From Bacteroidia bacterium (GTDB lineage Bacteria > Bacteroidota > Bacteroidia > 2-12-FULL-35-15), in contig JAGVJJ010000024.1 of the NCBI GenBank assembly GCA_020051175.1, forward strand, positions 1 to 64,000: a stretch of DNA of 64,000 nt, in the 5' to 3' direction. How positions within the stretch are numbered: position 1 is the stretch's first letter; every line of letters starts with the position of its first letter. The notes beneath the pieces are model-generated. The model worked only from the letters and a program-made list of their open reading frames with translations, had not been told where the DNA came from and searched no databases. Both the position numbers and the translations under genes were made by a program. Positions 38,532 through 44,066 of this stretch are shown piece after piece.

Positions 38532-39302
38532 ATGATTTTAACCGATACACACACCCACCTGTATTCAAAGGAATTTGATGCCGACAGGACACAACTTATT
38601 AAAACAGCAATAAAAAACGGTATTACACGCTTTTTTATGCCCAATATCGATAGTGACTCTATTCCATTGATGTACCAGGTGGAAAAAGAGTTTCCTGAGA
38701 ATTGCTTTGCAATGATTGGTCTGCATCCATGTTCCGTAAATGCTACCGTACAGCACGAGTTGCAGGTGATGCGGCATTGGCTCACCAGGCGCAAGTTTGT
38801 TGCTATCGGTGAGATTGGAATTGATTTGTACTGGGATAAAACCTTCATTCAGCAACAACAGGATGCGTTCAGGGCACAAATTAATCTCGCTAAGCAGTAC
38901 GGCCTGCCTTACGTGATACATTCACGCAATTCATTTGATGAGGTGATGGAGATTGTCAACGAGTTTAAAAGCGACAACATAAAAGCCATTTTCCACTGTT
39001 TTAGCGGCAATGTACAACAGGCCGAAGAGGTAATAGCAGCAGGTGATTTTAAGCTGGGTATTGGCGGTGTGGTAACTTTTAAAAACTCAGGCCTGGATAA
39101 AGTTGTTGAGGCAATTGATTTAAAAAACATCGTATTAGAAACAGATGCTCCTTATCTTGCTCCGGTCCCACATCGTGGCCAGCGCAATAATCCTGGTTAC
39201 CTTATGTTAATAGCGAGAAAGATTGCAGAGATTAAGAATATCAGTATTGAAGAAGTGGCCGAAATCACAACTCAAAATTCGAAATATGTATTTGGAGTAT
39301 AG
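38532..39302 (+). CDS. TatD family metal-dependent DNase/hydrolase
   Basis: A 256-residue TIM-barrel hydrolase. Metal-binding motifs are DTHTHLY at residues 4-10, GEIGIDLYWD near 97, HSRNSFDEV and FHCFSGN, and ETDAPYLAP near 205. TatD proteins are 3'-5' exonucleases in DNA repair or tRNA processing. Length is normal. It is divergent from hmgA, and a palindromic repeat lies 30 bases after its stop. Confidence 0.95.
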   Translation: MILTDTHTHLYSKEFDADRTQLIKTAIKNGITRFFMPNIDSDSIPLMYQVEKEFPENCFAMIGLHPCSVNATVQHELQVMRHWLTRRKFVAIGEIGIDLYWDKTFIQQQQDAFRAQINLAKQYGLPYVIHSRNSFDEVMEIVNEFKSDNIKAIFHCFSGNVQQAEEVIAAGDFKLGIGGVVTFKNSGLDKVVEAIDLKNIVLETDAPYLAPVPHRGQRNNPGYLMLIARKIAEIKNISIEEVAEITTQNSKYVFGV

Positions 39303-39333: not shown

Positions 39334-39389
39334 ATTATTTTCGGTTAAAACCGAAAATAATTATAATATTTTTCGGTTTTAATCGAAAA
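39334..39389. repeat. Paired-palindrome repeat, left copy (downstream of DUF4143 gene)
   Basis: Contains palindrome 1, ATTATTTTCGGTT / AACCGAAAATAAT (13-base perfect arms, 39334-39346 and 39349-39361), and palindrome 2, TTTTCGGTT / AATCGAAAA (39370-39389, one G-T mismatch). Bases 39337-39389 repeat directly at 40587-40639 with 6 mismatches, including an uninterrupted 30-base identical block (39352-39381). It lies between tatD and the end of the DUF4143 gene. Confidence 0.9.
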
Positions 39390-39444
39390 TTGTCATGTTT
39401 TAAATAAGATAATATTGGCCCTTGCCTGTATTGGGGGGGAGACC

Positions 39445-40569
39445 TTACAAAATAAATTCCTCTATATTCTCGGGTGAAATGGTGTTGGTTTCAGCGGGCT
39501 GGTATTCATTCACAAAGGTTTTGGTAAAACTGCTTTTCTTCTCTTTGTTCCACTTGAATTCCCAGGCGTAGAGTTTGCCATTCATTTCTTCTATATAGTC
39601 AATTTCCTGCTGAGCCGTGGTGCGCCAGAAATAGCGGTTGCAGAATATATGTTCATAATGAATATACTTATAGCGTTCACTTACAATAAAGTTCTCCCAA
39701 AGCGCTCCTTTATCCATACGTGATTCAATCGGGCTGAACTGGTTAATAACCGCATTGCGTATTCCGTTATCATAAAAGTATATTTTGCGGGACTTTTTTA
39801 ATTCGTTGCGTAAATTTCTGCTGAATGAATTTAGCCGGAACACAATAAACGCTTTTTCAAGCAGCATTATGTATTTTTCTACAGTTTCCTTATCAAGACC
39901 GCACATTTGACCTAGTTCATTATAGGAAACCTCGCTGCCAATCTGGAAGGCAAGCGCCTGGACAAGACGTTCCAGCTTTTCAGGTTTCTGTATACGTTCC
40001 CAGGTAAGAATATCTTTATAAAGATAACTGTCGGCCAACGATTTGATGATTATTTTCTCTTCCCCGGGATTATTAATTACTTCCGGGTAATACCCGTATA
40101 ACAGCCGCTGCTCAAGCAGCCTTTTTTCTTTAAGAAACCCGTGATGATCGGCCATTTCACGGAAGGATAGGGGGTATAAGTAATATTCCCATTTCCGTCC
40201 GGTTAGTGGCTCGTTTATTTTGTTGGCCAGGTCAAAAGCTGAGGAACCTGTGGCAATCACTTTAATATCTTTAAGCTGGTCAGTAATAATTTTAATACAT
40301 ATGCCGATATTCTCTATACGCTGCGCTTCATCAATAATAAGGTATTTGTTTTTACCGGATATGGCTTTTAAGCGGTTAGCGTTGGGTTTGGACAGCATAG
40401 TACGAACATCCGTATCATCACCATTCAGCCAAAGTGTATCTTGTGAACCAAAGAGATTTTGAAGTAAAGTGGTTTTCCCTACCTGCCTTGGTCCAAGAAG
40501 TATAATCGCTTTATTGTCTTTTAAGCGTAACCTTTTTTCTATCTGTTTTTCAAGAATTCGGCTAATCAT
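39445..40569 (-). CDS. AAA ATPase with DUF4143 C-terminal domain
   Basis: A 374-residue protein. The N-terminal AAA_14-type ATPase has Walker A LGPRQVGKTTLL near residues 25-36, Walker B KYLIIDEAQRI near 70-80 and a sensor IATGSSAFDLA. A middle winged-helix-like segment (SYNELGQMCGLDKETVEKYI) precedes a C-terminal DUF4143 region whose QEIDYIEE and AWEFKW resemble the D...ExK core of the PD-(D/E)XK nuclease fold. The physiological role of the family is unknown. I start at the ATG at 40569; an in-frame TTG at 40584 is less likely because it lies across the -7 box. The gene is bracketed by direct palindromic repeats and separates tatD from mfd, suggesting an inserted unit. Confidence 0.9.
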   Translation of the reverse strand: MISRILEKQIEKRLRLKDNKAIILLGPRQVGKTTLLQNLFGSQDTLWLNGDDTDVRTMLSKPNANRLKAISGKNKYLIIDEAQRIENIGICIKIITDQLKDIKVIATGSSAFDLANKINEPLTGRKWEYYLYPLSFREMADHHGFLKEKRLLEQRLLYGYYPEVINNPGEEKIIIKSLADSYLYKDILTWERIQKPEKLERLVQALAFQIGSEVSYNELGQMCGLDKETVEKYIMLLEKAFIVFRLNSFSRNLRNELKKSRKIYFYDNGIRNAVINQFSPIESRMDKGALWENFIVSERYKYIHYEHIFCNRYFWRTTAQQEIDYIEEMNGKLYAWEFKWNKEKKSSFTKTFVNEYQPAETNTISPENIEEFIL

Positions 40570-40573
40570 AGTA

Positions 40574-40639
40574 CAAATATACAATAATTTTCGATTGTGA
40601 TCGAAAATAATTATAATATTTTTCGGTTTTATTCGAAAA
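40574..40639 (-). promoter_or_regulatory. Promoter and paired-palindrome repeat, right copy (upstream of DUF4143 gene)
   Basis: On the minus strand TATATTTG (40574-40581) is a -7 box 4 bases from the ATG. Immediately upstream, palindrome 1 ATTTTCGAT / ATCGAAAAT (40587-40595, 40600-40608) fills the -33/-7 spacer, then palindrome 2 with 6-base core arms TTTTCG / CGAAAA (40620-40625, 40634-40639). Compared with the left copy, one stem pair changes from G-C to A-T at both positions, keeping the symmetry. This fits an operator. Confidence 0.7.
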
Positions 40640-40694: not shown

Positions 40695-43600
40695 TTATTC
40701 ACCAATTACCGGCTTTAGTGCTGTAATAGCATCATCCACAGATTTAATATTCTCAAATGAAAGCGAAAGTTTACCATTCGTTTCTTTCATTTTACAAATG
40801 CGTTGGTTCTGCTGAACAAACTTCAGCACTTTTGTAAACGTTTCGCTCTGGTAGTAAGGAGAATTGGCATTCGGGACAAAATAACCAACCAAACGGTTGT
40901 TTTTTAATAGCAATTTTTCAAAACCTATTTCCATGGCCAGCCATCGTAAGCGAATGGTATGAATCAGTTCTATCGTAGGTTCCGGAACCGGACCAAAACG
41001 ATCGTTCAGGTTAGATTCAAATTTTACCAGTTCCGCTTCCTCCTTTGAATCGTTAAGTTCACGGTACAGGTGAAGGCGTTCTGTAATGTTATTTACATAG
41101 GTATCCGGGATAAGGATTTCCATATCTGTGTCAATGGCGCAATCATTTACATATACAGCGTGTTTATTCCCGGTATACTTGTGCGTGCCACCAACAGTAG
41201 TATCCCTGAGCTCTTCGTGCTCCATGCGAAGCTCCATGATAGCTTCGTCCAGTATTTTCTGGTACATTTCAAAACCTATTTCATTGATAAAACCGCTTTG
41301 TTCGCCTCCTAACAGGTTTCCAGCCCCGCGTATATCAAGGTCACGCATAGCGATATTGAAACCACTGCCCAAATCAGAAAATTCTTCAATCGCTTTTAAG
41401 CGCTTTCGGGCTTCCGGTGTAAGCAAAGAAACAGGAGTAGTAAGCAGGTAACAAAATGCTTTTTTGTTGGAACGTCCTACGCGGCCACGCATCTGGTGAA
41501 GATCACTCAACCCGAACATGTGCGCCTGGTTAATAATGATTGTGTTTGCGTTTGAAATATCCAATCCTGATTCAATAATAGTAGTCGCAACAAGTACATC
41601 GTATTCCCCTTCCACAAAGCCAAGCATTACTTCCTCCAGCTTTTCTCCGTCCATCTGCCCATGACCAATAGCAACCTTCACATCCGGACATAAACGTGAG
41701 ATCATGCCTGCAATGTCCATTATATTTTGCACTCTGTTGTGCACAAAAAACACCTGCCCACCACGTGATACCTCAAACATAATAGCATCCCGTATGATTT
41801 CTTCATCGAAGGTGTGCAGCTCTGTCTGCACCGGGTAACGGTTGGGTGGGGGAGTACTGATAACAGATAAATCACGAGCACCCATCATGGAAAACTGTAA
41901 CGTACGCGGGATAGGGGTTGCGGTGAGTGTAAGTGTATCAATGTTTGCTTTTAAGGTTTTCAGTTTATCCTTAACACCCACTCCAAATTTTTGCTCTTCA
42001 TCAATTATCATTAAACCCAAATCACGGAATTTCACACTTTTCCCTACAATGCCGTGTGTTCCAATCAGGATGTCTATTTCGCCTTTTTCCAGTTTCTCCA
42101 GGGTTTGCTTCTGCTCTTTGGCCGACTTAAAACGGTTGATGTAGTCGACCTTGCAAGGAAAATCTTTTAAACGCTCTTTAAATGTTTTATAATGCTGTAA
42201 GGCAAGAATGGTAGTAGGTACGAGCACTGCTACCTGTTTGCTGTCACAAACTGCTTTAAAAGCCGCACGAACAGCAACCTCCGTTTTTCCAAAACCCACA
42301 TCGCCACACACTAGTCTGTCCATTGGCCATTCGCTCTCCATATCTTTTTTGAAATCTGAAGTAGCCTTTATCTGGTCAGGGGTGTCTTCATAAATAAAAG
42401 ATGCTTCCAGCTCGTTTTGCAAATAGCTGTCGTGGCTAAATTGGAAGCCTTTAAGTGCCTTGCGTTTAGCATACAGTTGAATCAAATCGTATGCAAGCTC
42501 TTTTACACGTTTTTTTGTTTTTTGCTTTAATGTGGCCCAGGCATTGGTTCCAAGCTTATTTATTTTAGGTTCGGTGCCTTCCTTACCGGAATATTTAGCA
42601 ATGCGGTGCAAAGAGTGTATGCTGATGTTTACCACATCATAGTCTTTATATACAAGACGTATGGTCTCCTGTGTTTTTCCGTTTACTTCAATGGTTTCAA
42701 GTCCTCCATAACGGCCTACGCCATAATCAATGTGTGTGATGTAGTCGCCAGGGTTGAGGCCCTTTAGTTCTTTCAGGGTGAGGGCCTCATTTTTTTTGTT
42801 GAAGCTGTTTTTTAAACGGAAACGGTGATACCGGTCGAAGATTTGGTGATCGGTATAACAGGCCAGCTTCAGATCATTATCAATAAAACCTTCGTGTATT
42901 GATAATAAAATGGGGGTAAACAACTCTGGCTCTCCGCTTTTTTTAGGAGAAATATCATCAAAAATTTTGTAGAGCCTCTCTATCTGTTTTGCTGTATCTG
43001 AAAAAATGATATTTGTAAGCCTGTTACGGATATTGCTTTTTAAATTATCGTTCAGGAAAGCGAAATTTTTGTTGAAGCTGGGCTGCGGGGAAAAATTATA
43101 AGAAATAGTTTTTCCCGCTGAAAGTGCCGACTGCCTGCCAAATTCCACAGTCGAAAATTGCAGCACTTGTTTTGTAAAAGTATCTTTATCTATGTATAGC
43201 TCTTTAGGTTCCAGATGTTCAATTACCGCATCCAGCTTATTGTATTCCGTTTCAGCAAAAGAGTAGGCTTTTTCAATACGATCGATCGTTAGTTGAAAAT
43301 CATTGAGCCAGATTACAGAATTATCAGGAATAAATTCCAGGAATGTCTGTCTGCTTTCTTTCAGTAATTTGGTCTGAACATTGGGAATAATGGTGCAATG
43401 CACCAATTGTTGAACAGATAGCTGAGAGGTGGCATCAAAGCTGCGGATGGAATCCACTTCATTCCCCAAAAATTCAACACGGTAAGGATTATCATTTGAA
43501 AAGGAATACATATCCACAATGCCTCCACGTATGGAGAACTGTCCCGGTTCAATCACATAGTCAACTCTGTCGAAGCCATATTCAATCAGCACATCAGCAA

Positions 43601-44066
43601 TAAAATCGATGGAGATTTTTTCTCCTTGCTTTATTTCCAACGTGTTTTTAGTAAGATGCGACTTGGTAACAACCTTTTCTGTAAGTGCCTCCGGGTAAGT
43701 AACAATACAAATGTGCTTTTTGCCGATGTTGATTTTGTTTAGCACTTCGGCTCTTAAAAGAATATTGGCATTGTCAATTTCTTCGTGTTGATAAGGCATC
43801 CGGTAGGAGGCAGGGAAAAACAGTACTTGTTCCTGTCCCAGTAAATTTTCAAGATCATTGAGGAAATAGGCCGCTTCTTCTTTATCACTAAGTATTAAAA
43901 GACTGGCTTTGTAAATGTGCTGATGTGCCGCAGCAGCAATAAAAGATGCACCAGACCCAATTACTCCTTTCAGACGCACGCGCGTAGCATCCCCGGCCAA
44001 TTCGGAGCATAGCAGGGAATTGTTAGATGACTCACTGTATTTGCGTAAAATATCCTCTTTTGTCAC
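40695..44066 (-). CDS. mfd: Transcription-repair coupling factor Mfd
   Basis: A 1123-residue DNA translocase that removes RNA polymerase stalled at lesions and recruits UvrA. The N-terminal UvrB-like region is followed by the RNA polymerase-interacting CarD-like domain near residues 425-490 (LNPGDYITHIDYGVGRYGGL), the RecG-like translocase with motif I GDVGFGKTEVA near 585 and motif II IIDEEQKFG near 685, RGRVGRSNKKAF, and the C-terminal TRCF domain. The start is GTG (MTKEDILRKY). A -7 box and ATTCGTA-type repeats lie just upstream. Length is normal. Confidence 0.97.
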   Translation of the reverse strand: MTKEDILRKYSESSNNSLLCSELAGDATRVRLKGVIGSGASFIAAAAHQHIYKASLLILSDKEEAAYFLNDLENLLGQEQVLFFPASYRMPYQHEEIDNANILLRAEVLNKINIGKKHICIVTYPEALTEKVVTKSHLTKNTLEIKQGEKISIDFIADVLIEYGFDRVDYVIEPGQFSIRGGIVDMYSFSNDNPYRVEFLGNEVDSIRSFDATSQLSVQQLVHCTIIPNVQTKLLKESRQTFLEFIPDNSVIWLNDFQLTIDRIEKAYSFAETEYNKLDAVIEHLEPKELYIDKDTFTKQVLQFSTVEFGRQSALSAGKTISYNFSPQPSFNKNFAFLNDNLKSNIRNRLTNIIFSDTAKQIERLYKIFDDISPKKSGEPELFTPILLSIHEGFIDNDLKLACYTDHQIFDRYHRFRLKNSFNKKNEALTLKELKGLNPGDYITHIDYGVGRYGGLETIEVNGKTQETIRLVYKDYDVVNISIHSLHRIAKYSGKEGTEPKINKLGTNAWATLKQKTKKRVKELAYDLIQLYAKRKALKGFQFSHDSYLQNELEASFIYEDTPDQIKATSDFKKDMESEWPMDRLVCGDVGFGKTEVAVRAAFKAVCDSKQVAVLVPTTILALQHYKTFKERLKDFPCKVDYINRFKSAKEQKQTLEKLEKGEIDILIGTHGIVGKSVKFRDLGLMIIDEEQKFGVGVKDKLKTLKANIDTLTLTATPIPRTLQFSMMGARDLSVISTPPPNRYPVQTELHTFDEEIIRDAIMFEVSRGGQVFFVHNRVQNIMDIAGMISRLCPDVKVAIGHGQMDGEKLEEVMLGFVEGEYDVLVATTIIESGLDISNANTIIINQAHMFGLSDLHQMRGRVGRSNKKAFCYLLTTPVSLLTPEARKRLKAIEEFSDLGSGFNIAMRDLDIRGAGNLLGGEQSGFINEIGFEMYQKILDEAIMELRMEHEELRDTTVGGTHKYTGNKHAVYVNDCAIDTDMEILIPDTYVNNITERLHLYRELNDSKEEAELVKFESNLNDRFGPVPEPTIELIHTIRLRWLAMEIGFEKLLLKNNRLVGYFVPNANSPYYQSETFTKVLKFVQQNQRICKMKETNGKLSLSFENIKSVDDAITALKPVIGE

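Follow-up and report, generated by a model that had tools for sequence, protein, structure and literature searches.

RAYT genes are flanked by REP palindromes. Insertion of some restriction-modification (RM) systems produces target duplications that are long, ∼100 bp, and variable in length, as described in the accessible part of a review (PMC3874152). The DUF4143 gene family is very common and poorly understood. PDC-S01, to which the DUF4143 gene studied here is assigned, was found by guilt-by-embedding; in the available part of PMC12988326 it ranks fourth in frequency among the defence systems of all prokaryotes and is described as an ATPase fused to a PD-(D/E)XK member, and no tested mechanism is reported for it there. 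The accessible text of PMC13356809 counts 10,358 PDC-S01 in rumen genomes. The available parts of these two accounts contain no mention of flanking repeats, phased operators, solo repeats or validated function; likewise, the accessible portions of the literature on DUF4143, COG1373, PF13635 and PDC-S01 yielded no mention of palindromes that flank the gene.

The DUF4143 gene and its R1 repeats

In the window, which is the whole 64,000-nucleotide stretch of DNA that was analysed, the DUF4143 gene is located at 39445..40569 on the minus strand. It encodes a protein of 374 residues, composed of an AAA_14 ATPase, a winged helix and a PD-(D/E)XK-like part, and is classified as PDC-S01 by PADLOC. The Pfam scan placed AAA_14 at residues 19–139 and DUF4143 at residues 185–341, both above the cut-off; the match to the PADLOC model PDC-S01 (PDLC04789) covers positions 1–373 of 375, with an E value of 3e-171. 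The gene is convergent with a tatD-like gene (38532..39302, plus strand), and an mfd-like gene (40695..44066, minus strand) is the upstream neighbour on the same strand. The names tatD and mfd, which come from the first-pass annotation, are presumed; its description of a 374-residue AAA_14/DUF4143 gene between these two neighbours agrees with both the Pfam scan and the gene order. The genome to which the window belongs (G000, 4.05 Mb) contains three DUF4143 genes, the window gene, L002 and L003.

Asp324, Glu337 and Lys339 of the window protein are invariant in 45 sequences; we take them to fit the D...ExK active-site motif of the PD-(D/E)XK nucleases. In the predicted model, the helix-strand order of residues 280–374 fits the PD-(D/E)XK fold. 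The fold comparison, which covered mainly residues 1–288, gave no match centred on this nuclease-like end. The nearest solved folds include STAND-type ATPases, in which the winged helix is mostly regulatory and not DNA-binding. The Pfam scan identified no transposase, recombinase or methyltransferase domain in the one protein of the unit.

The gene is bracketed by two R1 repeats, both on the minus strand. The downstream R1 (39338..39389) begins 55 nt past the stop codon and contains dyads at 39338–39357 and 39370–39389; it is in direct orientation to the upstream R1 (40588..40639), whose dyads are at 40588–40607 and 40620–40639 and which overlaps the likely promoter. A predicted −7 box, TATATTTG (40574..40581, minus strand), is located 4 nt before the ATG and presumably fits the Bacteroidota −7 box TAnnTTTG. 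The complete direct repeat (39334–39389 and 40584–40639) is 56 nt in length and 88% identical. The 53-bp direct repeats with a 30-base identical block, reported in the first-pass annotation, were recovered in our alignment with 6 differences in 52 columns. The two palindromes it had recognized in each copy are likewise present; they are of the form TTTTCGRTT...CGAAAA, and their centres are 32 bp apart, giving four dyad sites in total.

With up to 3 mismatches allowed, the dyad pattern has nine matches in the window versus 1.54 expected and a maximum of six in 100 shuffles; eight of the nine are the four R1 sites, read on both strands. The R1 flanks gave a comparison score of 38.5. Among 400 mismatched flank pairs, which include related loci, scores reach 14 at the 99th percentile and 43 at most, and the flanks of 161 control genes scored at most 14. 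The two R1 repeats are real and beyond chance.

R1 and R2 in related genomes

We searched 36 genomes of the same genus, including the window's own, for the R1 pair with up to 3 mismatches, using the reversed pattern as the control. R1 pairs were found at five places, four of them at three DUF4143 genes and one solo, versus none for the control. The places are both sides of the window gene, the upstream sides of its relatives in G028 (80% identical) and G029 (74% identical), and a site in G009 that contains R1 alone. The solo R1 of G009 sits in the mfd-tatD gap, which corresponds to its place in the window, but without a DUF4143 gene there; no match to the window protein was found in G009 at an E value of 1e-30. 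An mfd match is present in 34 of the 36 genomes, and 28 regions downstream of mfd were aligned; among these, mfd-tatD adjacency was noticed by eye in the window and G009 alone, the others having had no tatD search. In these genomes we found neither relatives that all keep the gene at this place without the repeats nor repeats lying mostly away from DUF4143 genes, the two outcomes that would have spoken against the first-pass interpretation.

With only 1 mismatch allowed, the single R1 dyad was found in the 4.05-Mb genome at the four window sites and as two one-strand near matches; the reversed control gave seven. The idea of a dispersed repeat was dropped, since in the genomes searched R1 and R2 (see below) were not found beyond the units and two solo sites. 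A target-site duplication outside the ends was also looked for, but the intergenic flanks in the relatives are too diverged to compare.

L002, the second DUF4143 gene of G000, lies between maf-like and mtaB-like genes (names that we presume) and is bracketed by R2, a palindrome unrelated to R1. L003, the third gene, has no direct repeat. At up to 3 mismatches, R2 occurs at six places in the 36 genomes; five adjoin three DUF4143 genes and one is solo, and the control gave none. In G029, a gene 82% identical to L002 is bracketed by R2 on both sides at a different locus. In G021, R2 is upstream of an 84% identical gene, and a decayed half R2, recognized by eye, follows the gene. G017 has a solo R2 in the maf-mtaB gap, without a DUF4143 gene, and in the same gap of G018 and G025 there is neither R2 nor a DUF4143 gene. 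These three genomes are the ones with mtaB nearby among 26 maf loci examined, out of 28 obtained from relatives. As G000 is filled, G017 has a solo R2 and G018 and G025 have neither, one site is found in all three states, filled, solo and empty.

In G000 and G029, the inner arms of R2 (17 nt on each side) are the same at both ends, whereas the 3-nt centres differ. In the six R2 copies, 22 arm pairs were compared; four changed on both sides, none changed on one side only, three contained an unpaired cell and 15 were invariant. Taken together, these comparisons show that the repeats are tied to the DUF4143 gene, that repeat-gene-repeat units stand at different loci, and that relatives have a solo repeat or nothing at the same sites. 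This suggests that the gene and its repeats come and go together.

Phased upstream arrays and flank duplications

We surveyed 95 distinct DUF4143 genes, some of which come from related genomes and are hence not independent. A phased array was defined as a tandem repeat with a period of 24–48 and a score of at least 11, in the 120 nt that precede the start codon. Such arrays, which lie near the start codon, are present at 56 of the 95 genes versus 7 of 219 control ORFs (p = 2e-28; largest control score, 30). The period is exactly 32 bp in 48 arrays, 33 bp in seven and 30 bp in one. A spacing of 32 bp corresponds to about three helical turns, so that the repeated sites would face the same side of the DNA. 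The unit sequences vary between clades, as judged by eye, and many are palindromic; upstream palindromes scoring at least 12 were found at 26/95 DUF4143 genes versus 4/219 controls. Downstream palindromes as such are not enriched (8/95 versus 16/219).

A downstream R copy is present at four main-set genes, the window gene, L002, L006 and L096. Beyond the main set it was seen in G029, in decayed form in G021, and on one Treponema plasmid. The other 91 of the 95 genes lack it, including the two closest relatives of the window gene, L004 and L009, and also L099, although the upstream repeat of L099 nearly matches that of L096. The first-pass annotation had suggested a self-contained, possibly mobile or selfish unit, which our results support in part. 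That gene and repeats behave as one unit holds for R1 and R2 in the 36 genomes, and the R2 unit occupies two loci; however, with 91/95 genes lacking the downstream copy, the bracket is not general. The phased upstream array is the more general feature.

For wider sampling, 11 loci were picked, ten of 528 plasmid records and one of 18 phage records with a match; L154 was left out. Phased repeats scoring at least 11 were found in two of them, L152 (Treponema, 32 bp) and L153 (Bacteroides, 33 bp). The 64% identical DUF4143 gene of L257 (MT836252, Bacteriophage sp., a contig deposited as phage) has a 32-bp repeat with a score of 10.5, below the cut-off. Seven of the 11 loci have neither a phased repeat at that cut-off nor a flank repeat. 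On the Treponema succinifaciens plasmid pTRESU01 (L251), a distant DUF4143 gene is preceded by a palindrome, of which a diverged copy (34 nt, 82%) starts at base 5 after the stop codon, forming a bracket in another phylum. Among the L002-like plasmid loci L293–L296, the upstream palindrome is clear in L294 and L295, weak in L293 and absent from L296; no flank repeat was found at these four loci, the end of the L294 frame being assumed. Directly downstream of that DUF4143-like frame, on a Runella rosea plasmid, two copies of the CRISPR-like repeat TTTCAATTCCACTGAGGTACGATTAAGG were noticed by eye. AAA-ATPase_like (PF09820), considered as a sister family, is present in 6 of 99 genomes and was set aside.

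We also compared 300 nt on each side of genes with full flanks for direct repeats scoring at least 18. These are present at 15 of 93 DUF4143 genes versus none of 161 random genes of comparable length (p = 1e-7). Four of the 15 are the R-type palindromes of the window gene, L002, L006 and L096. Among the other 11, the repeats at L063, L005, L077 and L090 are duplications of the 3′ end of the preceding, same-strand reading frame, and the repeat of L010 belongs to a local repeat family. Within 1500 nt, 21/95 genes have some flank repeat, of which L083, L100 and L128 have inverted ones only. L090, L077 and L063 lie between 51–107 bp duplications of host sequence; such host-target duplications are present at these relatives, and none was seen at the window, where the repeat is R1. 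L090 is the clearest case, with a perfect 51-bp duplication inside a gene that we take to be alaS. Its downstream copy runs on into the native alaS end, as in the congener G054 (L159), whose tail is uninterrupted, and the sequence beyond it is colinear in G211 (L160); this comparison covered nine of 29 loci obtained from relatives. A 53-bp duplication is present for L077, at a gene that is presumably mnmE. In G099 the mnmE end is undivided, but the sequence beyond it does not align, so that the empty site for L077 is incomplete.

The DUF4143 gene of G028 is directly followed by the final ∼26 codons of an mfd gene. The mfd 3′ end is present twice in this genome (L009:3080–3160 and the end of L046), and it is at this 3′ end that the mfd contig stops. 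This pattern is as expected if the DUF4143 gene is located behind mfd and the mfd tail is duplicated.

Fic genes of the same phylum were used as a second control. Flank repeats were found at 3/44 Fic genes versus 15/93 DUF4143 genes (p = 0.18); compared to random genes, the Fic genes are enriched (p = 0.009). Long flank duplications were therefore dropped as a speciality of DUF4143, and would instead be a trait of accessory genes here. Phased upstream repeats scoring at least 11 are present at 8/45 Fic genes, and seven of the eight have periods of 40–42; examples with such periods are L238, L242, L241 and L208. In G000 itself, the Fic gene L209 (contig C21) is flanked on either side by a near-palindromic repeat of 24 bp. 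Fic genes possibly represent the same plan in another single-gene family.

Origin of the unit and comparison with known systems

The explanation that we consider somewhat probable is that of an accessory one-gene cassette: a defence candidate (PDC-S01) that moves horizontally together with an operator-like repeat of its own, the downstream copy of which would allow removal. The upstream repeat, whose dyads overlie the promoter at a 32-bp phase, is most likely the gene's own operator, and R would be a putative binding site of the DUF4143 protein. In some subfamilies, including that of the window gene, a second R just after the gene completes the bracket. The units would arrive horizontally, because related units are found at different loci and there are sites without them; the presumed route leaves duplications, and relatives lying between long host duplications point to an insertion route like that of RM genes. 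Recombination between the direct repeats may then remove the gene and leave one R, as a solo R is seen at the same site in two congeners and for two unrelated R sequences. The solo R could also predate the gene instead of being a remnant. Several observations stand against this explanation: the downstream copy occurs in a minority only, 4/95 in the main set, and the flank duplications are not special to DUF4143, as the Fic genes (3/44) demonstrate; in addition, downstream palindromes as such are not enriched, and a winged helix of the STAND type would more often be regulatory than DNA-binding.

The first two observations would suit a plain autoregulated accessory (defence) gene, for which R is an operator only, its downstream copy an auxiliary operator or the product of a chance duplication, and ordinary horizontal transfer operates without a role for R. 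The phased array is indeed common upstream (56/95) and close to the start codon, the downstream copy is missing in 91/95 genes, and Fic genes have phased upstream repeats (8/45) as well as flank repeats. However, the solo R at the vacant sites of two congeners, the downstream R in unrelated subfamilies, and the R2 arms of G000 and G029, which match at both ends around differing 3-nt centres, all argue against it; we regard this account as possible, though less probable than the removable unit. Defined ends with matching arms at two loci, together with the three invariant nuclease-like residues and the mostly symmetrical variation of the R2 arms (4/22 pairs on both sides, 0 on one side; 6 copies), would fit a self-mobilizing element of a new kind, in which the ATPase-nuclease recognizes R as the element ends and excises or inserts the unit by cutting at them. 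Such an element is improbable: the protein lacks a transposase or recombinase domain, R is not dispersed in its own genome, multi-copy genomes hold copies that are diverged, judged by identity to the query (45–62% in G057), and L090, L077 and L063 duplicate host sequence, not R. A role of R as a bidirectional terminator hairpin is highly improbable. Single strands of R fold well, and one R1 copy lies between convergent genes in the window and in G009; on the other hand, the upstream copy stands in front of a promoter, no T-run follows the R2 hairpin behind L002, and five places in 36 genomes make R1 no common intergenic element and an unlikely generic terminator.

The solo repeats at vacant sites and the long duplications show how PDC-S01 genes come and go, and the 32-bp phased, gene-specific palindromes give many DUF4143 proteins a predicted, directly testable DNA target. 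They also raise the question whether the PDC-S01 family serves defence, is selfish, or combines the two. A broader proposal, that DUF4143/PDC-S01 genes form a large class of one-gene mobile elements in which the AAA+/PD-(D/E)XK protein would read its own palindromes, themselves diversifying rapidly, as operator and element ends alike, is doubtful; if true, much of the 'fourth most common defence system' would be a selfish element with its own ends.

Compared to the known systems, the window unit resembles RAYT/REP in having one gene bracketed by palindromes. Different from RAYT, the window protein has no HUH transposase domain, and the R1 palindromes are not dispersed in the genome. The archaeal ATPases 2QEN and 2FNA share 17% and 19% identity, respectively, with the window protein, and leave its C-terminal nuclease-like part uncovered. 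Fic genes are alike as single accessory genes, some with phased upstream and flank repeats, but they encode a different protein and their periods are mostly 40–42, not 32. With mobile RM units, the relatives L090, L077 and L063 share the position between long host duplications, whereas the window unit is a single gene without a methyltransferase and its repeat is R1, not host sequence. PDC-S01 is a phage-defence candidate, and phage protection by the window protein is predicted; the protein matches the full-length PADLOC model, and both combine an ATPase with a PD-(D/E)XK-like part.
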